Origin: Promethearchaeota archaeon
Lineage (GTDB): Archaea; Asgardarchaeota; Lokiarchaeia; Sigyniarchaeales; SOKP01
NCBI GenBank assembly: GCA_018238625.1
Contig: JABCSY010000009.1
Coordinates: 1 to 64,000, forward strand
DNA length: 64,000 bases
Direction of reading: 5' to 3'
Shown: one piece after another, positions 4,135 to 54,973 of the stretch
Layout of the letters: the number at the start of each line of letters is the position of its first letter
Numbering within the stretch: position 1 is the stretch's first letter
Notes under the pieces: model-generated
Told to the model about the DNA's origin: nothing
The model's input: only the letters and a program-made list of their open reading frames with translations
Database searches by the model: none
Position numbers and translations under genes: made by a program

Positions 4135-5625
4135 TTACGGATCGTTCCTGAAAGGATGACGCGCATTATCTGCGTTTTGGATACCGTCATCTACCGTTGG
4201 TAACCCTTCCATAGCCTTTCGAATGGCGTTTCTTGTAGCTTTATAGTTATTAATAAATACGCGTTTTCGAGCGCTCGCGCTAGGATGTACAAATACATTT
4301 ACAATTATTAGGATATCTTCTGCGGCTTCTTTAGGAAGAATTCCATCCTCTACGCATTTCATTACCGCTTTTGCTACTGCTGCTTGAGCAGGCCCATAAG
4401 TTAAACTTGCGTGGCGCATGGAAGTGATTTTAACTGTAGGGATCATAACAGTTGCAGGTTTAACTTGCATGTTTGGTTCGAGAATTACTTGTAATCCTTC
4501 ACGCCCTTTCGCTGGATGAGTTAAAGCGCGAGCGAAAGCGTCACCTACGGGTCCTTTTTTATTTCCTATTAAAAGATCTATATGTGCTAACTCTGCTCTA
4601 CTACCAACTAGCGACTCTCCGACTTTTAGGCTGAAACCAGAAATCTTTTCAGGCGTTACACCCACTGCGTAAAAACGACTCGTTAGTTCTTTATCGTCGA
4701 TCTTGAACTTAATTTCTTTCTTTTCGATATATCCTAACTTTTCAAGTTCGACTCTAAATTCGTCTTGGAGTTCGTAGGAAAGAGCGTCTCCTAAAATGAT
4801 CGGGCTTCTAGTTGTGCCTACTGGAATGCCCATCAAATTCAAGCACTCTTTGGCGCCTAGGGCTCCAGAATTGATTAGCATTCGAGCTAACTTTTGCACT
4901 TTCTTTTGTAGAGTTTGTGCTTCAATTAACCGATTGTTTTTTACATGGTCGTACATTTCGAGCCATACCTTAGGAATGACATTAGCAGAGCCAAGTATGC
5001 AACCCGCAGCGCCACCAGCTAAAGCACCTAGTACATTTTCGTCCCACCCTATTAGAACGGAAATTTTATCGCTTACTTTCTCTAATAACGCAGAGAAGTA
5101 TTTGTAGTCACCGCTAGAATCCTTTATCGCAACGAAATTATCAATATCAACCAGATCTTCTACAACAGTCCAAGGCAATTCTACTCCAGTACAGACGGGA
5201 ATATTGTACAACACCAAGGGTATATCGGTTTTTTCTGCTATCCTAAAATAATGGTCGTACAACCCTTTTGCCTTAGGTTTGAGATAATAAGGCGTTACAA
5301 TTATAGCCGCGTCTGCACCGATGTCTGTTGCAGCTTTAGTAGCATCTATTACCAATTTTGTTCCAGTCTCTCCAGTCCCAGCAATTACAGGAACTCTACC
5401 GTTCGTTTCGTCGACGACTATTTCTATGACTCTCAAACGTTCTTCAAAAGTCATGTTAACGAATTCTCCAGTCGTCCCTACCGGAACAAGTCCCGTAACT
5501 CCTTGGTCTATGAGATGGTTGACTAAATTTCTAAGGTTTTCTTCGTTAATTGATTCATCTTCTTTGTTAAAAGGAGTTACTAATGCCGGCATAACTCCTG
5601 TTGGTCTAAAATCAAATTTACCCAT
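4135..5625 (-). CDS. fusion of a DapA-family class I aldolase with a formaldehyde-activating enzyme (Fae) domain
   Basis: Two complete enzymes in one 496-residue chain. Residues 1-300 are a DHDPS/NAL-superfamily TIM barrel with GTTGE (50-54), the conserved Tyr140 in YNIP and Schiff-base Lys168 in IKDSSG. The Arg that follows the Tyr in true dihydrodipicolinate synthases (YNxPxRTG) is Cys here (YNIPVCTG), so DHDPS activity is unlikely. Residues about 331-485 are Fae, with VGESLVG, AHIDLLIG (catalytic-type His348), GPVGDAFARAL, LEPNMQVKPATVM and GPAQAAVAKAV. Fae condenses formaldehyde with tetrahydromethanopterin. A short linker (301-330) joins them. The gene starts 18 bp after the stop of the 428-aa gene, so the two form an operon. 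The aldolase substrate is unknown; a formaldehyde-yielding cleavage would fit. Confidence 0.92.
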   Translation of the reverse strand: MGKFDFRPTGVMPALVTPFNKEDESINEENLRNLVNHLIDQGVTGLVPVGTTGEFVNMTFEERLRVIEIVVDETNGRVPVIAGTGETGTKLVIDATKAATDIGADAAIIVTPYYLKPKAKGLYDHYFRIAEKTDIPLVLYNIPVCTGVELPWTVVEDLVDIDNFVAIKDSSGDYKYFSALLEKVSDKISVLIGWDENVLGALAGGAAGCILGSANVIPKVWLEMYDHVKNNRLIEAQTLQKKVQKLARMLINSGALGAKECLNLMGIPVGTTRSPIILGDALSYELQDEFRVELEKLGYIEKKEIKFKIDDKELTSRFYAVGVTPEKISGFSLKVGESLVGSRAELAHIDLLIGNKKGPVGDAFARALTHPAKGREGLQVILEPNMQVKPATVMIPTVKITSMRHASLTYGPAQAAVAKAVMKCVEDGILPKEAAEDILIIVNVFVHPSASARKRVFINNYKATRNAIRKAMEGLPTVDDGIQNADNARHPFRNDP

Positions 5626-17705: not shown

Positions 17706-18128
17706 ATGACCGAAAGCGAATTTAATCCATTCATTTTAGGTATATGTTGTAATTGGTGTACATACGCTGGTGCCGACCAAGCTGGAACATCTCGCATGCA
17801 ACGACCCGCAAATTTAAGGATTATGCGCGTAATGTGTGGAGGAAGAGTAGAACCACATTTTGTCTTGGACGCACTTAGAAATGGAGCAGATGGCGTATTA
17901 GTGTCTCATTGTCATCCAGGCGACTGTCATTACGTTGAGGGAAACTTAAAAACAATGAGGAAAATTCCAATGCTTCATTTATATCTAAAACAGTTCGGCA
18001 TTAACCCTAAACGAGTTAAGTACACGTTCGTTTCGGCTTCTGAAGGTGCAGAGCTGACTGAAATTGTTGAAGAATTTGTCCAAGAATTAAAAGAATTAGG
18101 ACCTAATCCTATGAAAAAGGAGGCATAA
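17706..18128 (+). CDS. mvhD: MvhD-type [2Fe-2S] electron-transfer subunit
   Basis: A 140-residue protein of the methyl-viologen-reducing hydrogenase delta-subunit family. The cysteine blocks are all present: CCNWCTYAGADQAGTSR, then MCGGRVEPHFVLDAL, then VSHCHPGDCHYVEGN. In methanogens MvhD passes electrons between hydrogenase or formate dehydrogenase and HdrA. Here it is the first gene of the formylmethanofuran dehydrogenase operon, four bases before fwdG. That placement suggests that this Fwd complex is tied to a heterodisulfide-reductase-like bifurcating complex. It is cytoplasmic; no HdrA gene is in the window. Confidence 0.92.
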   Translation: MTESEFNPFILGICCNWCTYAGADQAGTSRMQRPANLRIMRVMCGGRVEPHFVLDALRNGADGVLVSHCHPGDCHYVEGNLKTMRKIPMLHLYLKQFGINPKRVKYTFVSASEGAELTEIVEEFVQELKELGPNPMKKEA

Positions 18129-18132
18129 AACA

Positions 18133-18390
18133 ATGCAAATTTACGAATTAAAAATTAATAGAAACACTTGCACTGGTTGCAACGCGTGCGTTGTAAGTTG
18201 TCCAATTAACTTTAACCAATTGAGGAAACAAAGTTATTTGAACGAGGAGAATGCTGTTATACTGGTTAAAAACGGTATTGCGGTACCTGTTTACAATAAA
18301 GAAAGAAATATTAATTGCGATGGTTGTGGGATATGCATTGAAAATTGTCCACAGCAATCAATTAGAATTGAAGTTATGGAGGGAGTTTGA
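18133..18390 (+). CDS. fwdG: 2x[4Fe-4S] ferredoxin subunit of formylmethanofuran dehydrogenase
   Basis: An 85-residue ferredoxin with two [4Fe-4S] motifs, CTGCNACVVSCP (residues 12-24) and CDGCGICIENCP (residues 63-74), separated by a longer insert than in simple ferredoxins. Size and position match FwdG of methanogens. It should carry electrons to the polyferredoxin FwdF and the tungstopterin subunit. It overlaps the SD region of fwdF. The assignment rests mainly on the operon. Confidence 0.8.
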   Translation: MQIYELKINRNTCTGCNACVVSCPINFNQLRKQSYLNEENAVILVKNGIAVPVYNKERNINCDGCGICIENCPQQSIRIEVMEGV

Positions 18391-18394
18391 AAAG

Positions 18395-19105
18395 ATGTCG
18401 TTTCCAAAAATTTCAAGAACAATTACAGAAGAAGAAGAACATGTAAAAGTTCAATTTTTAACAGAAAGCTTAGAACTTGTTTTAAATAGAACCAAATGCG
18501 TAGGGTGTGGAACTTGCGCCCGAGTATGTCCCAAAGAAGCTATTTCCAGAGGACCTATTGGAGCTTCACGTCGATTTCCAACAAGCGAAGATATAGTATC
18601 AGAGCTCTATGATCCCAAGGCTTGTGTTTTTTGCGGCACTTGCGTAGTTATGTGCCCATTTGGCGCATTGACGCTAAAAAAAGACGGAGAAATAATTAAT
18701 TTAGCGGATATCCCTATTGTTGCTCAAAAAGTAGTTCCTAAAATTGAATTTGAAGCGAAAAAACTAAAAAACGATAGAGTAGTAAAGCAATACGCTAAAG
18801 CAACTGTGAAGGTTATTGACGAAGAGTGTGCTAAGGGATGTGGGTCGTGCGCTGAAGTGTGCCCCTCAGGAACTATTGAAATAGCTAAAAGACCTGAGCA
18901 TGGTTGGGAAATGTCGAAAAATGTAGAAGTTGTCGACCCAGATGCTTGCGTGGCTTGCGGAGCGTGCGATAACGCTTGTCCAACGGGAGCGTTGCAGCTT
19001 GAAATTACCGAAGTGAAAACTTCTGGTGAATTTAGCAAGTTATTTTGGCCACCATTGTTAGAAAGATTGAAAACGTTAAGATGGAGTAAAAAGGAGGGTT
19101 CTTAA
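18395..19105 (+). CDS. fwdF: polyferredoxin subunit of formylmethanofuran dehydrogenase
   Basis: About 236 residues from the ATG at 18395 (MSFPKIS), which has GGAGGGA upstream. A longer in-frame start at 18251 would overlap fwdG by 140 bp and add a non-homologous stretch. Four [4Fe-4S] motifs are seen: CVGCGTCARVCP, CVFCGTCVVMCP, CAKGCGSCAEVCP and CVACGACDNACP. Methanogen FwdF usually has more clusters, about eight, so this is a shortened version. It acts as the electron wire of the Fwd complex. It ends two bases before fwdD. Confidence 0.88.
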   Translation: MSFPKISRTITEEEEHVKVQFLTESLELVLNRTKCVGCGTCARVCPKEAISRGPIGASRRFPTSEDIVSELYDPKACVFCGTCVVMCPFGALTLKKDGEIINLADIPIVAQKVVPKIEFEAKKLKNDRVVKQYAKATVKVIDEECAKGCGSCAEVCPSGTIEIAKRPEHGWEMSKNVEVVDPDACVACGACDNACPTGALQLEITEVKTSGEFSKLFWPPLLERLKTLRWSKKEGS

Positions 19106-19107
19106 AA

Positions 19108-19503
19108 ATGAGTTTAAAAAATTTTATTTTATTAACTGGTCGAACTATTAACCAAGGAGTAGCTCTTGAAGGTGGAAAAGTATCAAAGGAAAATGTTCGA
19201 GCTGCGGGAATCTGTGCCTTCGATAGAGACGACTTTAAAAAGCTAGATTGCCTTGTTGGAACTCCTGTTAAAATTACAACTGATTTTGGAGAAGTTATAG
19301 TCTATTCTACAATTTCAGAAGAGGGCCCTCATCCCGGGATATTATTTGTTCCGATGGGTCCATGGGCTAATCAACTTGTGAATCCAGACTCACAAGGGTG
19401 TGGCACTCCAACATATAAAGGGATGAAAGCAAAGGTTGAAGTTATTAAAAACGGAAAGGTATTAGATGCCTTGGAATTAATAGGACAATTGAAAGAAGCT
19501 TAA
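19108..19503 (+). CDS. fwdD: formylmethanofuran dehydrogenase subunit D
   Basis: A 131-residue molybdopterin-dinucleotide-binding beta-barrel domain protein. The segments LLTGRTINQGVALEGGK, GTPVKITTDFGEVIVYS, PGILFVPMGPWANQLV and TDSQGCGTPTYKG-type sequence (here PDSQGCGTPTYKG) are typical of FwdD/FmdD. It completes the cofactor site of the catalytic FwdB, being the C-terminal domain of related formate dehydrogenases made as a separate chain. It sits between fwdF and fwdB with very short gaps. Confidence 0.9.
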   Translation: MSLKNFILLTGRTINQGVALEGGKVSKENVRAAGICAFDRDDFKKLDCLVGTPVKITTDFGEVIVYSTISEEGPHPGILFVPMGPWANQLVNPDSQGCGTPTYKGMKAKVEVIKNGKVLDALELIGQLKEA

Positions 19504-19522
19504 AGGAAAAAGAGTGAAAATA

Positions 19523-20848
19523 ATGGTAGAAAGAAAGCTTAAAACGATATGCGACGTTCCGTGTCCATTTTGTGGCACATTTTGTGATGACCTTGAAATA
19601 GATCTGGACGTTAAAGAAAATAAAGTTGTTGAAGTGAGAAATGCTTGCCAAATCGGTAGTAAAAAATTCTTATCGTCAAATAGCGAGCATCGTTATATGA
19701 AGCCTTTAGTTAAAAAGAAAGGAGAATTTAAAGAGGTTTCGTGGGACGAAGCACTTGATAAAGCTGCCGAGATATTAGTTAACGCCAAAAGACCTCTATT
19801 GTACGGATTTTCCAGCACTGAATGTGAAGCTCAGAGTAAAGGCGTTGAGTTAGCAGAAACATTAAACGCTCTTTTAGATAATACAGCATCTGTTTGTCAC
19901 GGTCCTAGTTTATTAGCAGTACAAGATGTTGGTGCACCAATGGCCACTTTAGGAGCGTACAAAAATAGAGCCGATCTGGTAATATTCTGGGGCTCTAATC
20001 CAGTTCATGCCCATCCTAGACATTTGAGTCGATACAGCAATTTTGTGAGGGGTTATTTTAGAACTGATGGTAAAAACGATAGATTTATCGTAGTTGTAGA
20101 CCCGAGAAATACTCACACTGCCCAAATTGCAGATTTATACATCAAGATAAATCCTAACGAGGACTATCAACTATTAAATGCAATAAGAGCCATGGTAAGA
20201 GGTACAGAGCTAGACGTAAAAGAAGTTGCTGGCGTTCCAATGGAAAAAATGAAAGAACTAGTGAAAATATTGAAATCGTGTAAGTTTGGAGTAGTCTTCT
20301 TCGGCATGGGATTAACGCAAACATTAGCACATCATCGCAACGTTGACACGGCAATTTGTTTAGTTAGAGAACTGAACGACCATACTAAATTTCTTTTAAC
20401 GCCCATGCGAGGGCATTACAACGTCGCTGGAGCAAACCAAGTTTTTACTTGGAATACAGGCTATGCGTATTCTATTGACTTTTCAAGAGGATATCCTCGT
20501 TATAATCCTGGAGAATTCTCTTCTGTCGATCTTCTAATGAGAGACGAAGTAGACGCCACATTAGTTGTAGCCTCTGATCCAGGAAGTAATTTTCCCGCAG
20601 CGTCTGTAAGAAACTTATTTAAACACCCCCTAATCTCAATAGAGCCACATGAAACCCCGACATCTGCGTTTGCCGATGTAATTTTACCCGCAGCGTTTGC
20701 TGGTATTGAATGCGAAGGAACTGCTTACCGTATGGATAAAGTTCCTTTAAGGTTGAGGAAAGTAAAAGAACCACCGGGAGAATGTTTGTCTGACAAAGAA
20801 ATATTAGAAAGATTAATTGAAAAAGTGAAAGAAAAGATGGGTGAGTAA
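19523..20848 (+). CDS. fwdB: formylmethanofuran dehydrogenase catalytic subunit B (Mo/W bis-pterin)
   Basis: About 441 residues. The N-terminal [4Fe-4S] motif is CDVPCPFCGTFC with a distant Cys, followed by the molybdopterin oxidoreductase core (FWGSNPVHAHPRHLSRYS, VVVDPRNTHTAQIAD, PMRGHYNVAGANQVFTWNTGY). The metal ligand is cysteine, Cys128 counted from the GTG at 19514, in SVCHGPS; no selenocysteine. The start at ATG 19523 follows GAGTGA; GTG 19514 is an alternative. FwdB reduces CO2 to formate, which FwdA normally condenses with methanofuran. A FwdA gene is absent from this operon. Metal choice (W or Mo) cannot be read. Confidence 0.93.
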   Translation: MVERKLKTICDVPCPFCGTFCDDLEIDLDVKENKVVEVRNACQIGSKKFLSSNSEHRYMKPLVKKKGEFKEVSWDEALDKAAEILVNAKRPLLYGFSSTECEAQSKGVELAETLNALLDNTASVCHGPSLLAVQDVGAPMATLGAYKNRADLVIFWGSNPVHAHPRHLSRYSNFVRGYFRTDGKNDRFIVVVDPRNTHTAQIADLYIKINPNEDYQLLNAIRAMVRGTELDVKEVAGVPMEKMKELVKILKSCKFGVVFFGMGLTQTLAHHRNVDTAICLVRELNDHTKFLLTPMRGHYNVAGANQVFTWNTGYAYSIDFSRGYPRYNPGEFSSVDLLMRDEVDATLVVASDPGSNFPAASVRNLFKHPLISIEPHETPTSAFADVILPAAFAGIECEGTAYRMDKVPLRLRKVKEPPGECLSDKEILERLIEKVKEKMGE

Positions 20849-20851
20849 AGT

Positions 20852-21700
20852 TTGGCCGATATCAAGTTAAAAATAAAAAAGAAACTAGATTTTCCTTTAG
20901 AAGCAGATAGTATAACGCCAGAGAATTTCGCTGGGAAAACTCTGAACGAAATCAAGAAATTACCGTTATATTACGCTAAAGAACTAACGACTATTGGTGC
21001 TTTTTTTGATGTTTCTGGAAAATCAGTTGAAGTTGCTGACACTAAAATTATCATCGATGGCGACGTGTCTAACGTCAAGCGTATTGGCGAAAAAATGAAG
21101 GGAGGAGAAATCGTGATTAATAGCGATGTCGGTATGCACGTAGGAAATAATATGTCAGGGGGAAAGATCGTAGTTAATGGAAATGCGGACGATTGGGCTG
21201 GAGCTATGCTTAAAGGTGGTGAACTTGAGATCAATGGAGATTCTGGTCATTACACTGGCTCAGCATATAGAGGGTTCTGGCAGGGAATGAGAAATGGCGT
21301 GATTCGAGTTAAGGGCAAAGTAGGTAGCGAATCAATGATATGGGCAAACGGTTCTAGAATTGCTAAAAGGTTCCCTACTTTATATTGTGGCGGTGCAGCA
21401 GCATTTTTAGGGCTTCATTCGCATGGTGCGACCATCGTAGTTGAAGGCGATGCAGACCGCTGCGTTGGAGCAGATCAAATAAAAGGAACTATAGTGATTA
21501 AGGGAAAAACCCCCGTACTTCCATCATTTGTAAAGATTGGGGAAGTTAAAGAAATCGAACTATTCAATGGTGAAAAAATAACCGGGAAATTTATTGAGTA
21601 CAGTGGAGACCATTCAGTGAAAAAAAATCATTCTGCTATTAGCAAAAAGACAGGGGAACTTAATATAGGTGTCAATGGCAGGTTATTTGTAGCTGTATAA
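20852..21700 (+). CDS. fwdC: formylmethanofuran dehydrogenase subunit C
   Basis: A 282-residue beta-helix protein, TTG start at 20852, three bases after fwdB. The GXXGXXX-type repeats are clear (MKGGEIVINSDVGMHVGNNMSGGKIVVNGNADDWAGAMLKGGELEINGD, read as consecutive turns), similar to the glutamate synthase alpha C-terminal domain. The SESMIWANGSRIAKRFPT and CVGADQIKGTIVIKGK segments match FwdC. It is the scaffold joining FwdA and FwdB. Its presence suggests a true Fwd complex rather than a formate dehydrogenase, and that a FwdA gene lies elsewhere. Confidence 0.92.
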   Translation: MADIKLKIKKKLDFPLEADSITPENFAGKTLNEIKKLPLYYAKELTTIGAFFDVSGKSVEVADTKIIIDGDVSNVKRIGEKMKGGEIVINSDVGMHVGNNMSGGKIVVNGNADDWAGAMLKGGELEINGDSGHYTGSAYRGFWQGMRNGVIRVKGKVGSESMIWANGSRIAKRFPTLYCGGAAAFLGLHSHGATIVVEGDADRCVGADQIKGTIVIKGKTPVLPSFVKIGEVKEIELFNGEKITGKFIEYSGDHSVKKNHSAISKKTGELNIGVNGRLFVAV

Positions 21701-34976: not shown

Positions 34977-37900
34977 TTAAAGCTTAATTTCACAAGACTC
35001 CGAATCACAGAACTTACTTCCTATTGCTCTGTCTTTTGTTTTATCCAAATCTAAAGGTTTAAGTTTTGAAACCATTTCCTCGAATTTTTCTTTTGTGATC
35101 GATTCGTACGGAGCTTGTTTGTAGCCGTGCTCTTTAATCGGTAAAAAACTTACGCTTTTTAGCTTATCTTCAAAGCACTCCAGCACGTGTTTAATTTGGT
35201 TTGCCTCGTCTTGCTTAAACGTAATCGTAATTGATACTTGGTTGTCGGACCAATATTTTTGATAGTCTGCAGCATTTTCCGCTTGTTCCCATATAGAAAC
35301 GTCGTCCTTGGAACGTTCAAATAATTGTTCGTGGACGGGAAATTCGACTACAATAGTATTAGGAGAATATGAATCGTCCTCTATGTAATAACCGGCGTTT
35401 TTAATGGGGTCTATCAAATCAGAATTCTTCGAAATGCGAATTCTTCGGATATAATATTCGGAATGAGGATAGTGAATTCCTGGAGGGACTCCCGGAAGTA
35501 AGCTTACGGTTCCGCTCGGTTTAACCGTAGTAATTTTTATCGATTTTGGGATGCACAACCAATCGGAATAATCCTCGTCCAATTCCCGTATATATTTATA
35601 ACCTTTATCGCACCAGTCTAACATATTCCTTCTTCCATGTTTCACAAAAGCTTCAATTATTCCCGTTTGTGAAATTCCCATTCGCCTGTTCTTAAGCATT
35701 ACTGCGTTAGTTTCTTGCCAATGCGTATTTACGAGCGTTACAGATTTAGCGTACAAATAAGCAGACTTTAAAGTGTCTTGATACTCTTCGTATGACTCGT
35801 GCCTTGAAGGGAACGTCTCTACAAGGCAGCAAAGTTCGAATGATTCCAACGTCTGTTCTCCGCAATTTGCAGTAAATATCATTTCTAACTTAGGCCTTCC
35901 TGATTTAGTTTCTTTTTCAGTTAGAATAATTCCATAATTATGGAAATCATCGACTGTACCATTATAAACTGTATTTTTCCCAATATAATTGACTGATACA
36001 ACTTTATGGTTATAAGATAGACCACAGTCTTTTAGTTTTAGTGCCATTTGTTGCCTATACTGATGTTTACTTAATGAGCGAACAGAGATTGTTTGACAAA
36101 CATATTTCTCAGTGATCGTGTCCATTACATATTGATAGCCTTTATAAATTCCAGCAGTTCTAAAATCGTTGATTCCATTTTCTTTAATAAATTTTAAGAA
36201 ATCAGCTAATTGAGGAACCTCATTTTGTTCATAAATATATTGAGCAAATAATTGACATAATTTTCTTTTAGCTTCTTGTTGATTTCTTTTTCCTTTATTT
36301 TTCATCGCTGCGCCTGCCTTAATTGCAGCTATTTTATTAGCACATTTATGTGAACAATAAGCTTGCTCTCGTCTGCCATATTTTACTTTAAATTCCTTTC
36401 TACATAATGCACAATATTTTACAACAAACATACCATCTTCAAAAATTAACTCAAGATCGCTTTCTTTCAGTAAATTAATATATCTTTTATATTCTCTCAT
36501 TAGAGCTGGGTTATCTAAATGTTCAAATCCAGATTCAATATTCGCTCTTTTAATGAAATTCAATAATGAACCACGAAATTCAGTAAAGGAAGATATTAAT
36601 CCTATTTCTTTTGAATGTTCTTTCCAAGCGGGAATAGTTAATGGTTCATTTGTTCTTTTGATATAGGAAATCATCTCATTATAAATTTGCTCATTAGAGA
36701 TTCCAGAATATCTTGGGTTTTTGGTACCGGAAGTAGCTTTCGACATCCTTTGATGGTACTGTTGTTTTTCTTCAGGAGTAGCATGGGGATACCAAATACG
36801 CATAGGATTTTTATCACCTGATATATCATGTAAAGAATCATGATCATCCTTTAGCATAAGTTCTAAATTATCTTTTCTATTATTCAAACCATCCTTGTCT
36901 TTATGATGGAGAACATACCCACTGGGAATTTTACATTTATTAAGTTGTTCATAAATAAATGTATGTTCAAAAGTGTTTTTCTTTCCATTATTTAACATCC
37001 AATAAATTGATCTTTTCTTCTTTTCTTCTCCCATTATCTCTGCCCAAGTTGTTTGCCATTTTGGTGTTATCATTAGACTATCTCCACTTCTTAATTCTCT
37101 AGCTTCTAAAGATGTATTATTCCTTAAAATAAACTTATGATTTTCTGTGCATTTTATTATACTATCATCATCCAATTTTACTTCATATATTTTCTCATTA
37201 TAACCCGTAATTCTTGGATTTCTCATCATTCTTATTACTGTTAATCCTTTATCATTTTTACAGTACACGGGAATATCGTTTCCTTCTTCTGCCAATTGTT
37301 TTATTGCCACAGCATTCCTACCGTCAGCGACAGCAATAAGTGTATCACCTGTTATACAAGGATTTACGCCCGCAGCTTTCTTATCTTTATGGTCTGGTGG
37401 GTTTCCCATTCGAGAATACGCCTTTGCGTTTTCTATCCAAAGAATTCCAGGTTCCCCATTCACAGCAATCTGATCTGCTATGAAAGAATAGTCTAATCCT
37501 TTTTTTGCAAATATACTGTTATTGCTCGCCCATCTATGCGAATAAAGTTTTTCTTTGTCTTGTTTGCTCTGTATAAACTCTAGATCGGTGGCTTCTCCTA
37601 ATGCGATCTCAGCACTGCGGCGAACATTGCCGGCTACGACGCATTTTCCAATGAGATTCATAATATCCAAAATGTCAAGTGACCTTATTGGTAGACCTAT
37701 TCGAGCTTCTAAGATTTTTTGAATATTCATCAACATATCAATTAAAGGTTCTGGGCCGCTAGCTATTCCTCCAAAGCCTCTAATTGGCTGACCTGCGGGC
37801 CTAATTAAGCTAAAATCAAACTTTGGCATTCGCTTACCTAAAAAATACGCTTCTATAACAAGTTTAAGGGCTTCCACCCAACCTTCTCTGCTATCTGGTA

Positions 37901-38705
37901 ATTGAAAAGTAAAATGATCTTCTATAGGTTTTTGAATTGTAATTTTACCTGCTCCTTTTGTATCAAAACCTACTCCTACGCCCAACATTAGCGCATCCAT
38001 CACGAATTGGAACGCTTTCGAGTATTTTAGGTCGATATCGTCGGTAGAGGCAAAGCCGCAGTTATTAAGCGACATAGAACCGTGACGCGCGATAAACTCG
38101 GTTCCCATCATCCAAAGTCCCCTTCCTGGCGGTAAGAACTTAAAATTCCAGATTTTATTATACATTATTTGAGCAGATTTCTGAGCTTTAGCATCGGTCC
38201 AAGGTAAACTTAACTTGATACAGTGCTCTTTTTGGATTGAATAACAACCTTCGACAACTCTTCTGATCGTTTCCCAGAACTCTTCCTTTCTGTTCTCTCC
38301 TTCTACAACTCTGGCGTAGGTTCTTTTGTACGTGATGTAGCCTAAAGGGCCCCAATCAGGTTGGTTCCCTGTAAATTTAGCAAGAAAACTATTGTCTAAC
38401 GTGAAAGATATATTTTCCAAATTAATAGCTCGAGCGAATAGATTTCGGTATTTATTTAAACCTCGTTGGGTTAGCTCGACACATACTAATTCTCTAACGT
38501 GATTAGTAGTGATCTCATCAACTCCTAGACCAATAATTATTCGTAAAACATCTTCCGTAACTTTTTCCGCAATGTGTATATCAAGACCAGTTTCTTTGTT
38601 TAATACTTTTGCTATGCTAGTATCTTCGAACTTTTTTTTTTCACCTTTCGAGTTTATTACATATTTTGGATACAAATCTTTTAATGAAAACGAGTTGTCA
38701 GTCAT
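34977..38705 (-). CDS. nrdJ: adenosylcobalamin-dependent (class II) ribonucleotide reductase with intein
   Basis: A 1242-residue precursor: 744 residues of NrdJ interrupted by a 498-residue intein. An ATP-cone lies at the N-terminus (KYVINSKGEKKKFEDTSIAKVLNKET). The reductase core has LNNCGFASTDD, RSAEIALG, then after the intein CGEQTLESFELCC and KPSGTVSLLPGVPPGIHYPHSEYYIRRIRI. The C-terminal redox pair is FCDSESC. It reduces ribonucleotides using a B12 radical, so it works with or without oxygen. The intein splits NP|CGE just before the Cys948 thiyl-radical residue. It converges on the toxin-antitoxin pair. Confidence 0.95.
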   Translation of the reverse strand: MTDNSFSLKDLYPKYVINSKGEKKKFEDTSIAKVLNKETGLDIHIAEKVTEDVLRIIIGLGVDEITTNHVRELVCVELTQRGLNKYRNLFARAINLENISFTLDNSFLAKFTGNQPDWGPLGYITYKRTYARVVEGENRKEEFWETIRRVVEGCYSIQKEHCIKLSLPWTDAKAQKSAQIMYNKIWNFKFLPPGRGLWMMGTEFIARHGSMSLNNCGFASTDDIDLKYSKAFQFVMDALMLGVGVGFDTKGAGKITIQKPIEDHFTFQLPDSREGWVEALKLVIEAYFLGKRMPKFDFSLIRPAGQPIRGFGGIASGPEPLIDMLMNIQKILEARIGLPIRSLDILDIMNLIGKCVVAGNVRRSAEIALGEATDLEFIQSKQDKEKLYSHRWASNNSIFAKKGLDYSFIADQIAVNGEPGILWIENAKAYSRMGNPPDHKDKKAAGVNPCITGDTLIAVADGRNAVAIKQLAEEGNDIPVYCKNDKGLTVIRMMRNPRITGYNEKIYEVKLDDDSIIKCTENHKFILRNNTSLEARELRSGDSLMITPKWQTTWAEIMGEEKKKRSIYWMLNNGKKNTFEHTFIYEQLNKCKIPSGYVLHHKDKDGLNNRKDNLELMLKDDHDSLHDISGDKNPMRIWYPHATPEEKQQYHQRMSKATSGTKNPRYSGISNEQIYNEMISYIKRTNEPLTIPAWKEHSKEIGLISSFTEFRGSLLNFIKRANIESGFEHLDNPALMREYKRYINLLKESDLELIFEDGMFVVKYCALCRKEFKVKYGRREQAYCSHKCANKIAAIKAGAAMKNKGKRNQQEAKRKLCQLFAQYIYEQNEVPQLADFLKFIKENGINDFRTAGIYKGYQYVMDTITEKYVCQTISVRSLSKHQYRQQMALKLKDCGLSYNHKVVSVNYIGKNTVYNGTVDDFHNYGIILTEKETKSGRPKLEMIFTANCGEQTLESFELCCLVETFPSRHESYEEYQDTLKSAYLYAKSVTLVNTHWQETNAVMLKNRRMGISQTGIIEAFVKHGRRNMLDWCDKGYKYIRELDEDYSDWLCIPKSIKITTVKPSGTVSLLPGVPPGIHYPHSEYYIRRIRISKNSDLIDPIKNAGYYIEDDSYSPNTIVVEFPVHEQLFERSKDDVSIWEQAENAADYQKYWSDNQVSITITFKQDEANQIKHVLECFEDKLKSVSFLPIKEHGYKQAPYESITKEKFEEMVSKLKPLDLDKTKDRAIGSKFCDSESCEIKL
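35865..37358 (-). mobile_element. NrdJ intein with HNH homing endonuclease
   Basis: An in-frame insertion of 498 codons (residues 450-947). Splicing signs: first residue Cys in CITGDTLIA (block A), TENHKF (block B), late NTVYNGTVDDFHNYGI (block F) and last residue Asn before +1 Cys. The residue before the terminal Asn is Ala, not the usual His. The middle contains an HNH-type segment, GYVLHHKDKDGLNNRKDNLELM, plus a Cys-rich motif (CALCRKEF...CSHKC). It is probably a homing intein. Confidence 0.92.
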
Positions 38706-51588: not shown

Positions 51589-51829
51589 TTATTGAAATAT
51601 CTACTAGCTTGAAAATCATTGCATTTTTAAACATGAACAGCATAAATTATACTAAATTATTATTTTATGTAAATCCTAAGAATAATAATTATAAAAGAGA
51701 GACAGATTAATTACAAGAAGATGGAATTAAGATTATGCCTATTTTAGAACAACTTAAGGAAGCAACTCAACTTACAAATCCTTGGATTAATAGCTGGAAA
51801 AATGAAGGAAAAAAAGTATTAGGATATTT
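51589..51829 (+). repeat. 241-bp direct repeat, copy 2 (intact dehydratase start)
   Basis: The intact counterpart of 50401-50641. It holds the promoter region, SD and first codons of the gene at 51735. Confidence 0.92.
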
Positions 51830-52856
51830 TTGTTCTTATATTCCCGAAGAGATTATCTACGCTGCAGATATTTTACCGATTAGGGTTAGAGCAAGATCGT
51901 GTACCGATACACCAATGGCGGATGCCTATTTAAGTTCTACCACATGTAGTTATACAAGATGTTGCCTTGAGCAAATCAATAGAAAAGAATTTGGATACCT
52001 TGATGGAATTGTTTCGTGTAATTGTTGCGACCAAGTTAGGAGACTTTACGATAATATAAGATATAAAACTCCGTTTCCTTACCATTATATCATGGGAGTT
52101 CCCGGTAGTGTCAATGAAACTACATTAGATTGGTTTAAATATGAACTCTCGAAATTCAAAGTAAGTATTGAGAAAAATTTCAATACTACTATTACTGATG
52201 AAAAGTTAGGTGATACAATTAGATTATACAATAATTCTCGTAAATTGCTAAGAGAGATATATGAGCTCAGAAAACAGGATTCTCCTCCTATTACAGGTAG
52301 TGATGTACTAAATATCATTTCAGCAGGAATCTCTATTCCAAGAAATGAGTTTAATGCTTTATTAACGCAGCAACTTGAGGAGATTAAGACTAAAGAGAGT
52401 ATTTCTGATTATAAATCGAGAATAATGATAATCGGTAGTATGCTTGACGAGCCAGAATATTTACAATTAATAGAAGAGCTCGGCGGATTAGTAGTCACTG
52501 ATTCTAATTGTATAGGAACTCGATATTTTTGGGATATGGTTGATGAAACTTCAAGTCCTCTTGATGCTCTTGGAGAGCGTTATTTGTCTAAAATCTCATG
52601 TCCTCGTATGACTGGTGTGCATTTAAAAAGAGCGCAATATATGATGGATATGATTAAAGAGTTTAATGTTGATGGAGTAATTTTTCAAAGAATGAAGTTT
52701 TGTGCGATATGGTGGGCTGAGATTTTCATGCTTCGGGACAAATTGAAGGAAGAAGGTATTCCATTTCTTGATTTAGAAAGAGAATATGTGTTAAGTGGCG
52801 CTGGAGCTGTGAAAACTCGCGTTCAAACCTTTATAGAAATTTTAGAAGCGAGGTGA
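51735..52856 (+). CDS. 2-hydroxyacyl-CoA dehydratase / benzoyl-CoA reductase-family subunit (HgdB/BcrC-like)
   Basis: 373 residues. Cysteine-containing blocks for the [4Fe-4S] cluster include the STTCSYTRCCLEQ and VSCNCCDQVRRLYDN segments, and the C-terminal FQRMKFCAIWWAEIFML and FLDLEREYV sections match the HgdB/FldC/BcrC family. It opens with TNPWINSWKNEGKKVLGYFCSYIPEEIIYAADILPIRV, typical of the group. The subunit joins the next gene (4-bp overlap) to form a radical-dehydrating or ring-reducing enzyme. The choice between these activities is not decided by sequence alone. Confidence 0.87.
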   Translation: MPILEQLKEATQLTNPWINSWKNEGKKVLGYFCSYIPEEIIYAADILPIRVRARSCTDTPMADAYLSSTTCSYTRCCLEQINRKEFGYLDGIVSCNCCDQVRRLYDNIRYKTPFPYHYIMGVPGSVNETTLDWFKYELSKFKVSIEKNFNTTITDEKLGDTIRLYNNSRKLLREIYELRKQDSPPITGSDVLNIISAGISIPRNEFNALLTQQLEEIKTKESISDYKSRIMIIGSMLDEPEYLQLIEELGGLVVTDSNCIGTRYFWDMVDETSSPLDALGERYLSKISCPRMTGVHLKRAQYMMDMIKEFNVDGVIFQRMKFCAIWWAEIFMLRDKLKEEGIPFLDLEREYVLSGAGAVKTRVQTFIEILEAR

Positions 52857-54181
52857 AAAAAATGGATATAGAATTATTTAAAAAATATAAGAAATTGGGT
52901 AGAGGAAATTGGGGAAAAGATCTTGCTTTGTGGAAAATGATGTACTTGGGATTTCTAAATAAAAATAAAGATGAAGAATTTAACCCAGTTTTCGAATTAT
53001 TATATAATATCTTCCTTGAGCTTCCTAAGGCAAGGAAAGAAGGGAAACCTGTTATAATGCATTCATTCAATTATGGTCCTGAATTATTTCACGCAATGAA
53101 CTTAGAACCTCTTATGCAGGAATTATTTTCCGTTGGATTAGCCCCGTTAAATCTTAATGAACCTTATATAGATTTTACCAATCAAATTGGATATGGAGAT
53201 AATCCAACAATCTGTAATGCTCAAAGACCATTGATTGGTTCTTTTATGCAAGGTGTTTCGCCAATTCCTGATTTACTATTCTTTCTTTCAACGCCTTGTA
53301 ACTCTCTTGCCATGACTTATCAAGTTTTTGAACATATAGCCAAAGTCCCTGCATATAGTATAGATGTTCCTTATTGGGCTTATGAACGACAAGATAACGA
53401 ATTTTATGATGAAAATACTGTTGAATATATGGTAAAGCAAGTAAAAGATTTAATATCATGGTTAGAAAAAGAAACAAAGCAGAAGTTAGATCCTGAAAAT
53501 CTCCAAAAAACAATGAAAAATGTTAATCAATCAAGGGAATATATATTAGAGTTTAACGAACTTTTAAAAACGGTTCCTTGCCCAGTGCCAAGCCAATCAG
53601 GTTTTGGGAACTTCCTTTCTATGGTGACTCGTGGTGGCACTGATGATGCTGTCAAAGCTACTAAATGGCTACGTGATTCTGCTTTAGAAAATATTAAAGA
53701 TGGGATAGCAGGTGTACCTGATGAGAAGATTAGAATTGCTTGGCCTTATACTCATGTCTTCTTTGATGCCGACCTTCTCATTTGGTTAGAAGAAACATTC
53801 AAAGCAGTGGTGATTATGGATATACTTGGATACTATCAAGTCCTTCCTCACGATATATCAACAGTAGAGAAATGTTATGAGAGTTTAGCTAAGGGAACGT
53901 TAGACTTTTCAATGGTGGGAACGTGTCGTGGTCCAATTGAGTTTTATATCGATTTTTTATTAAATTATGTAAAAGAATATAAAATAGATTGTGTGATTAT
54001 GCCAATGCAATTTGCGTGTAAACACGCATATGGGATAGCTCGAGTTGCTTCAGAAGTTGTGCGAGAACAAACAGGAATTCCATTTTTAATTTTTGGTTGT
54101 GATCCTTACGATTCGCGAGAAGTAACTTCAGACGCTATAAGAGAGAGGATTTCAGAGTTTATCACACAAGTAGTTTTATAA
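52853..54181 (+). CDS. 2-hydroxyacyl-CoA dehydratase / benzoyl-CoA reductase-family subunit (HgdA/BcrB-like)
   Basis: 442 residues, same superfamily as the preceding gene and overlapping it by 4 bp. The VGTCRGPIEFYIDFLLNYVKEYKIDCVIMPMQFACKHAYG block is typical. Starts with LGRGNWGKDLALWKMM and includes FFLSTPCNSLAMTYQVFEHIA. It is the second half of the heterodimer, probably sharing a FeS cluster. The activator gene follows after 18 bp with a strong SD. Confidence 0.86.
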   Translation: MKKMDIELFKKYKKLGRGNWGKDLALWKMMYLGFLNKNKDEEFNPVFELLYNIFLELPKARKEGKPVIMHSFNYGPELFHAMNLEPLMQELFSVGLAPLNLNEPYIDFTNQIGYGDNPTICNAQRPLIGSFMQGVSPIPDLLFFLSTPCNSLAMTYQVFEHIAKVPAYSIDVPYWAYERQDNEFYDENTVEYMVKQVKDLISWLEKETKQKLDPENLQKTMKNVNQSREYILEFNELLKTVPCPVPSQSGFGNFLSMVTRGGTDDAVKATKWLRDSALENIKDGIAGVPDEKIRIAWPYTHVFFDADLLIWLEETFKAVVIMDILGYYQVLPHDISTVEKCYESLAKGTLDFSMVGTCRGPIEFYIDFLLNYVKEYKIDCVIMPMQFACKHAYGIARVASEVVREQTGIPFLIFGCDPYDSREVTSDAIRERISEFITQVVL

Positions 54182-54188
54182 AGGAGGT
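54181..54188 (+). promoter_or_regulatory. Shine-Dalgarno site of the activator gene
   Basis: AAGGAGGT, 11 bases before the ATG at 54200 and overlapping the end of the previous gene. A strong SD in an operon of otherwise overlapping genes. Confidence 0.7.
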
Positions 54189-54199
54189 TTATTATAGAA

Positions 54200-54973
54200 A
54201 TGTTAGTAGCTGGATGTGATGTTGGTTCATTAACAGGAAAAGCAGTAATATTACAGGATGGTGAAATTTTATGTTATAGTATTGTTCCTACAACACCCAA
54301 GCCTGAAAGAACTGCTCAAAATGCAATGGATGCGGCACTTCAAAAAAAAAACTTATCTTTGAACGATATCGAATTCATTGTAGGGACGGGATATGGTAGG
54401 ATTAAAATTCCTTTTGCCACTTCTCAAATATCAGAATTATCATGTCATGGTAAAGGTGCCCACTCGGTTCTCCCATCAGTTAGAACTATAATTGATGTGG
54501 GAGGTCAGGATTGTAAAGTAATTAAAGTGGATAAGAATGGAAAGATACTAGATTTTGCCATGAATGATAAATGTGCCGCAGGAACGGGAAGATTTTTGGA
54601 AGTAATGGCTAGAACTCTGGAACTCAAGCTTGAAGAGCTCGGTCCAATATCTTTGGAATCAAAGAATCAGGCTAAAATAACTGCTCAATGTAGTGTCTTT
54701 GCTGAAACAGAGGTAGTTAGTCTTATGGCCGATGGTATAGAAGTAGCAGATATAGTTGCTGGGATTCACGATGCTGTAGCCTCTAGAATTATGTCTCTTG
54801 TGTATAGAGTTGGCCTTGAAGAAGATTTGACCATAACTGGAGGTGTAGCAAAGAATATAGGAGTTGTAACCTATCTAGAAAAAAGGCTGGGGGTCACCTC
54901 AAAAAAATTACCAGTTGATCCTCAAATAATAGGAGCGTTAGGAGCTGCTTTAACAGCAAAAGAGCAAAAATAA
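54200..54973 (+). CDS. 2-hydroxyacyl-CoA dehydratase activator ATPase (HgdC/BcrD-like)
   Basis: 257 residues of the BadF/HgdC ASKHA ATPase family. ATP motifs: GCDVGSLTGKAV, IDVGGQDCKVI and ITGGVAKNIGVV. The bridging [4Fe-4S] cysteines are in DKCAAGTGRF and QCSVFAETE. It drives electron transfer to the dehydratase or reductase using ATP. Only one activator gene is present, so a homodimer as in HgdC is likely; benzoyl-CoA reductases usually have two (BcrA, BcrD). That favours the dehydratase reading. Confidence 0.9.
   Translation: MLVAGCDVGSLTGKAVILQDGEILCYSIVPTTPKPERTAQNAMDAALQKKNLSLNDIEFIVGTGYGRIKIPFATSQISELSCHGKGAHSVLPSVRTIIDVGGQDCKVIKVDKNGKILDFAMNDKCAAGTGRFLEVMARTLELKLEELGPISLESKNQAKITAQCSVFAETEVVSLMADGIEVADIVAGIHDAVASRIMSLVYRVGLEEDLTITGGVAKNIGVVTYLEKRLGVTSKKLPVDPQIIGALGAALTAKEQK

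Follow-up and report, generated by a model that had tools for sequence, protein, structure and literature searches.

What is the function of an enzyme that joins a DapA-family class I aldolase to a complete formaldehyde-activating enzyme (Fae) in one chain? The question is raised by the gene P0001, located at positions 4135..5625 on the minus strand of a 64,000-nucleotide stretch of archaeal DNA, the whole of which is referred to here as the window. We propose, with a probability of about one half, that the fusion is a bifunctional enzyme interconverting 2-oxo-4-hydroxybutanoate (HOB) with pyruvate and methylene-tetrahydromethanopterin (methylene-H4MPT), that net cleavage is favoured, and that a partner protein, P0002 or its replacement c12, makes or consumes HOB. 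This two-part enzyme, found in Lokiarchaea and many other uncultured archaea, is previously undescribed: a search of open-licence papers, outside which many subscription journals lie, retrieved no description of a DapA-Fae fusion, and the novelty assumed in an earlier interpretation of the window (the sequence-only reading) therefore stands within that literature.

The reading frame of P0001 begins with ATG, contains no internal stops and encodes a single chain of 496 aa matching PF00701 and PF08714. The aldolase domain (residues 8-277; 4795..5604, minus strand) is delimited by the Pfam match (PF00701 DHDPS, E 1.7e-74), column counts, alignment with E. coli DapA and a phylogenetic tree. It is followed by the C-terminal aldolase helix (to about residue 296) and a linker (4624..4794, minus strand), of which residues 307-331 are predicted to be disordered from their AF2 per-residue confidence (below 50). 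The Fae domain with its conserved His348 (residues 335-492; 4150..4623, minus strand) covers positions 1-158 of the 159 in PF08714 (E 8.1e-59, 198.6 bits, cut-off 27), scores 195.8 bits with the Fae model TIGR03126 (cut-off 118) and can be aligned over its whole length with the solved Methylobacterium Fae 1y5y (E 6e-30), whose His pairs with His348. An AlphaFold model of the whole chain (mean pLDDT 85.6) predicts two confidently folded domains separated by the disordered linker. The aldolase domain superimposes on the solved DHDPS 3pud with a TM score of 0.95 in Foldseek (38% identity in the structural alignment), and DHDPS is its nearest relative in both sequence and fold. The sequence-only reading had given exactly these coordinates and had recognized one chain with an aldolase and a full Fae domain; both Pfam matches lie far above their cut-offs.

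The catalytic residues of the aldolase are Lys168, which forms the Schiff base, Tyr140, Thr51/Thr52 and Tyr114, and the motifs of a pyruvate-type site (GTTGEF, YNIP and K168) are kept. Column counts over 37 diverse fusions show Lys168, Tyr140, Thr52 and His348 to be invariant (37/37), which together with the alignments bears out the Tyr140, Lys168 and His348 named earlier. In true DHDPS, the Arg equivalent to E. coli DapA Arg138 binds the carboxylate of aspartate semialdehyde. The alignment places Cys145 of P0001 at this position, again as first read, and the 37 fusions carry Cys (24), Ala (5), Val (4), Leu (3) or Thr (1) and never Arg; both copies of the tandem fusions described below are non-Arg as well. 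Since the site is unaltered on its pyruvate side and the Arg is gone, the change sits on the aldehyde side. An altered aldehyde side next to a Fae domain suggests formaldehyde as the aldehyde, and pyruvate plus formaldehyde equals HOB.

The fusion was found in 105 of 228 Asgard genomes and 25 of 62 genera (match at E <= 1e-60), a few of these matches being fragments and several lying at contig ends. Nearly all genomes of the window's genus hold full-length, stop-free fusions at 85-98% identity. A wider scan of 84,980 species genomes gave at least 80 fusion loci, and the matches listed in that scan include at least about 45 Bathyarchaeota-titled contigs, Lokiarchaeota, Njordarchaeum, Hermodarchaeota and one Theionarchaeon, these names being record titles that may be wrong for some bins. 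The named organisms most closely related to the window are Lokiarchaeia. The genome search that the sequence-only reading had called for thus reveals a widespread and conserved fusion. As the MAGs are incomplete, gene absences reported here are soft. In the tree, the aldolase domain of every sampled fusion falls into a single clade (96/94), distinct from that of DHDPS (100/99), and the joining of the two domains therefore probably happened once. Two fusions on Bathyarchaeota-titled contigs (L109, L129) branch with the Lokiarchaeal ones, possibly through misbinning or transfer.

Half of the system is a partner that was absent from the sequence-only reading. P0002 (5644..6930, minus strand) encodes a TIM-barrel protein of 428 aa and lies 18 bp upstream of the fusion on the same strand. 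Searched as a single sequence it had no Pfam or NCBIfam match, and neither the single sequence nor a profile had a significant sequence match in the PDB. AlphaFold (pLDDT 84.7) models it as a TIM barrel carrying helices at its N-terminus, for which Foldseek returned loose TIM-barrel matches, the best being a Giardia class II FBP aldolase (E 1.3e-3, TM 0.34-0.46). No function was read from the fold, as the matches resemble class II aldolases and other barrels only loosely. Of 101 neighbourhoods from Loki- and Bathyarchaeia, 61 have a member of the P0002 family close to the fusion, and the family is present in 126 of 228 Asgard genomes. Where it is absent its place is often taken by c12, a protein of about 312 aa, and the two never occur together in any of the 228 Asgard genomes. 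One or the other is present in 94/105 fusion-bearing versus 44/123 fusion-less Asgard genomes, co-occurrence statistics that ignore phylogeny. Among the fusion-bearing genomes of Bathyarchaeia and relatives, 29 of 48 have P0002, and c12 is present in a few of the others.

Profile comparisons suggest that P0002 and c12 are distant homologues: hhalign aligns them colinearly over the barrel (probability 39%, P 3e-4), and a c12 profile run against a set of 1,750 proteins finds the P0002 family next-best (E 7.5e-4), the best other family reaching 0.08. Relatives of c12 match Peptidase U32 (PF01136) weakly, whereas P0002 itself has no Pfam match and differs from U32-like proteins in length, N-terminal helices and conserved residues. 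Bacterial plasmid relatives of the partners (Polaromonas, Thermomicrobium, Enterobacter) stand in mixed catabolic or biosynthetic contexts that indicate no clear substrate. On the Polaromonas plasmid CP087967.1 a P0002 homologue with 52% identity (L142:11986-13257), followed by an SDR-like frame, is divergent from a cluster for a TRAP transporter, DapA, FAD-oxidase and aldehyde dehydrogenase. The complete MAG chromosomes G242, G260 and G261 (L078, L096, L097) match P0002 in two pieces tens to hundreds of kb apart, reflecting either a scaffolding error or a split gene. A TrmI-like methyltransferase and a membrane protein that neighbour the bathyarchaeial genes were judged incidental.

The genes beside P0002 give the system a homoserine context. 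In most Asgard genomes that have P0002 and lack the fusion, it adjoins a class I/II aminotransferase, homoserine dehydrogenase (HSD; PF00742 E 9e-61; NF004912 437 bits, cut-off 373) and aldehyde:ferredoxin oxidoreductase (AOR). Examples of this P0002-aminotransferase-HSD-AOR operon are found at L150-L159 in fusion-less Asgard genomes (e.g. L156:8580-13926), and where such genomes hold both P0002 and HSD the genes lie within 10 kb in 24 of 32 cases, 12 of them within 2 kb. In family f8, P0002 is often about 1-3 kb from threonine synthase (ThrC; NF006050, 318.6 bits, cut-off 303), and in some Bathyarchaeia AOR also stands beside P0002 and the fusion. An aminotransferase and HSD are the exact gene set that joins HOB, homoserine and aspartate semialdehyde, which provides independent support for HOB. 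The sequence-only reading had named HOB as a possible source of formaldehyde; the HOB half of that idea gains from the linkage of P0002 to HSD, aminotransferase and threonine synthase genes, whereas the formaldehyde half is still what we infer. Beside the fusion in four bathyarchaeial loci with HSD and without P0002 (L083, L086, L093, L110) lie genes for a ferredoxin and a methanogenesis-marker-16-like protein, relatives of which make homocysteine from aspartate semialdehyde.

The substrate, the transfer or channelling of formaldehyde, the direction and the reaction of P0002 that we infer are as follows. In the N-terminal class I aldolase, Lys168 would bind pyruvate or HOB as a Schiff base and the C3-C4 bond would be made or broken, and the C-terminal Fae would condense the resulting formaldehyde with tetrahydromethanopterin to methylene-H4MPT. 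Formaldehyde would be handed directly to Fae, keeping free toxic formaldehyde low. P0002, or its putative distant homologue c12, would produce or use HOB. In net cleavage, an as yet unnamed precursor would be converted by P0002 to HOB, which would yield pyruvate and methylene-H4MPT, and in fusion-less lineages HOB would instead be disposed of by transamination to homoserine, HSD and AOR. Given HOB as the substrate, we consider cleavage somewhat the better bet on three grounds: Fae acts as a sink for formaldehyde; AOR, a usual aldehyde oxidiser, belongs to the alternative gene set; and the HSD-less genomes of the window's own family mostly lack ThrC (kept in 5/27) and so have apparently no use of HOB for threonine. 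The loss of ThrC from these genomes suggests threonine auxotrophy. Several points count against the proposal: position 145 is not strictly Cys, HSD is kept in some fusion-bearing genomes, P0002 is absent from some fusion-bearing Bathyarchaeia, and the chemistry of P0002 leaves a gap in the route to or from HOB; a further one, the metal dependence of most HOB aldolases named in the cited papers, is taken up with the known systems.

The same enzyme and substrate might run biosynthetically, with methylene-H4MPT supplying formaldehyde that is added to pyruvate, giving HOB and then homoserine in replacement of the aspartate/HSD route. We regard this as unlikely, with several observations in its favour. 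HSD occurs in 20/105 fusion-bearing versus 81/123 fusion-less Asgard genomes (Fisher 6e-13, shared ancestry not removed), an anti-correlation that supports HOB as the substrate in either direction and is inflated by shared ancestry, and also in only 12 of the 48 fusion-bearing genomes of Bathyarchaeia and relatives, where it is present in 4/29 with P0002 and 8/19 without (p 0.04). The position of P0002 beside threonine synthase in f8 would fit, and many fusion-bearing, HSD-less Bathyarchaeia, and often f8 too, keep threonine synthase above the cut-off. Against this, Fae is normally a formaldehyde sink, and release of formaldehyde from methylene-H4MPT is the unfavourable direction; the window's family mostly loses ThrC along with HSD; and a function would still have to be found for P0002 whether HSD is present or not. 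Other genes of the pathway are of little help: ThrC retention among HSD-less genomes is 43/85 with the fusion and 22/42 without, a GHMP homoserine kinase (thrB) was found in only 18 of 228 genomes and is of no use for telling the direction, and archaeal asd, present in the window's genome and many others, is not discriminating.

Two readings that dispense with HOB seem improbable to a similar degree. Formaldehyde may be added to or released from another 2-oxo acid, e.g. hydroxymethyl-branched ketopantoate, Fae acting as trap or donor; the Fae domain argues for a C1 aldehyde and the lost Arg for one free of a carboxylate, but the pyruvate-type site is intact and, in the neighbourhoods examined, the partner is linked to homoserine genes and not to pantothenate genes. 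Alternatively, the substrate of the aldolase may be a longer 2-oxo-3-deoxy sugar acid, as for E. coli YagE, and Fae may serve to sense or detoxify formaldehyde with no direct transfer. Hydrophobic residues, Leu among them, also occupy the Arg138 position in YagE and NanA, a c12 homologue sits in a bacterial sugar-acid-like locus, and Fae-like proteins are known that stand alone and have other roles. The Fae domain of P0001, however, is complete and retains its His, its covalent linkage is kept in the sampled Asgard, Bathyarchaeia and Theionarchaea lineages, and YagE falls outside the fusion group in the tree, the nearest sequence and fold being DHDPS.

There is very little chance that P0001 is a DHDPS of the lysine pathway with a functionally meaningless Fae domain. 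The NCBI dapA equivalog model scores it at 235.5 bits, above its cut-off of 206.15, and automatic annotation therefore mislabels it. We nevertheless rejected this identity: every sampled fusion has lost the Arg, the fusions form a separate clade, the fusion is strongly associated with P0002/c12, and the window's genome (G000) holds a stand-alone DapA (L187) that keeps the Arg in the motif YNVPSRTG. The earlier view that the substrate differs from that of DHDPS is strengthened accordingly. As for an assembly artefact, a chance that we regard as negligible and in favour of which nothing was found, the identical junction in many independent MAGs and in complete chromosomes across phyla rules it out, and 105 of 228 Asgard genomes together with Bathyarchaeota-titled contigs contradict the single-genome origin that the sequence-only reading had kept in view.

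In family f8 and in G059 (L048, L052-L060) the fusion occurs as a tandem pair whose Fae domains have decayed in complementary ways. In copy 1 the central part of Fae (EPNLxVKP, R404, P412) is retained, but His348 and the C-terminal Asn-Asn/His490 region are gone (in G059 only in part); copy 2 has kept His348 and the C-terminal region and lost the EPN segment. The aldolase Lys and Tyr are kept almost always in both copies, with the exception of G192, where copy 2 has Ser for Lys and copy 1 keeps Lys. A Bathyarchaeota-titled contig (L134) carries what by eye is a similar pair, in which the C-terminal region is missing from copy 1 and the EPN segment from copy 2. Fae forms homopentamers whose active sites lie at subunit interfaces. 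With sites of this kind, the simplest reading of the pair, drawn from the sequence patterns, is complementary degeneration into what the residue losses suggest is an obligate hetero-oligomer. All of this might be combined into a natural and widespread archaeal 'homoserine-C1 node', in which DapA-Fae links pyruvate, HOB and methylene-H4MPT together with a new TIM-barrel family, and in which one Asgard family has a half-degenerate two-protein complex sharing Fae sites; we hold this broader picture tentatively, at slightly less than even odds.

Elsewhere in the window (17706-21700, plus strand), MvhD-like, ferredoxin and formylmethanofuran dehydrogenase D, B and C-like genes were recognized by eye, which places the methanofuran/H4MPT branch in the vicinity of the fusion. 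A 1242-aa frame at 34977-38705 (minus strand) appears by eye to be a ribonucleotide reductase with an intein-like insert bearing an HNH-type motif, and a 2-hydroxyacyl-CoA dehydratase-like set with its activator was likewise seen at 51735-54973 (plus strand). Lokiarchaea and Bathyarchaeia are abundant and mostly uncultured, and their C1 and amino-acid metabolism is inferred from genomes by homology; standard annotation of P0001 as DapA or as Fae would misplace it. If the proposal is true, the fusion would connect the methyl branch of the Wood-Ljungdahl pathway with C3/C4 metabolism through a new entry or exit, would offer a natural enzyme for a reaction sought in formaldehyde and formate biotechnology, and would be a natural counterpart of the HOB/homoserine step hitherto used in synthetic formate pathways. 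P0002 would be a new enzyme family with a role at homoserine, and the tandem pairs a clear Asgard example of a shared active site degenerating complementarily.

Among known systems, DHDPS/DapA (TIGR00674, PF00701) shares with P0001 the fold and the Lys/Tyr/Thr catalytic set (E. coli Lys161, Tyr133, Thr44/Thr45) and differs in keeping the Arg and in forming a separate clade. E. coli YagE (2-dehydro-3-deoxygluconate aldolase) and NanA are likewise DapA-family class I enzymes, and they have a hydrophobic residue at the Arg138 position; they differ in acting on longer sugar-acid substrates, in being without Fae and in occupying separate branches of the tree. The interconversion of pyruvate plus formaldehyde with HOB and of HOB with homoserine is known with other aldolases and is used in synthetic pathways (PMC8224422; PMC10992282). 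The HOB aldolases named in these papers are mostly metal-dependent class II enzymes, e.g. of the YfaU type, including the 'HAL' of the synthetic homoserine cycle (PMC10992282), and not DapA-type, which counts against the HOB reading; P0001 would have the reaction in common with them, but belongs to the class I Schiff-base enzymes and carries Fae within its own chain. Of the known systems, Fae-HPS (NF009833; tetrahydromethanopterin hydro-lyase / 3-hexulose-6-phosphate synthase) comes nearest; there, formaldehyde is released by HPS, and Fae is suggested to trap it as methylene-H4MPT (PMC5241800). The window's genome appears to hold such a protein itself, as its second Fae gene (L001) is a 426-aa frame that by eye consists of Fae and then HPS, and the Fae domains of the two proteins are only 43% identical. 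NF009833 scores P0001 at 161.1 bits, below its cut-off of 274, and matches the Fae part only, the HPS domain being absent. Judged by its sequence, P0001 is thus not a member and resembles Fae-HPS in design: in both, a formaldehyde-releasing aldolase, putatively so in P0001, is covalently joined to Fae, whereas HPS belongs to another superfamily with another active site and lies C-terminal to Fae, and P0001 has a Schiff-base DapA-family aldolase N-terminal to it.
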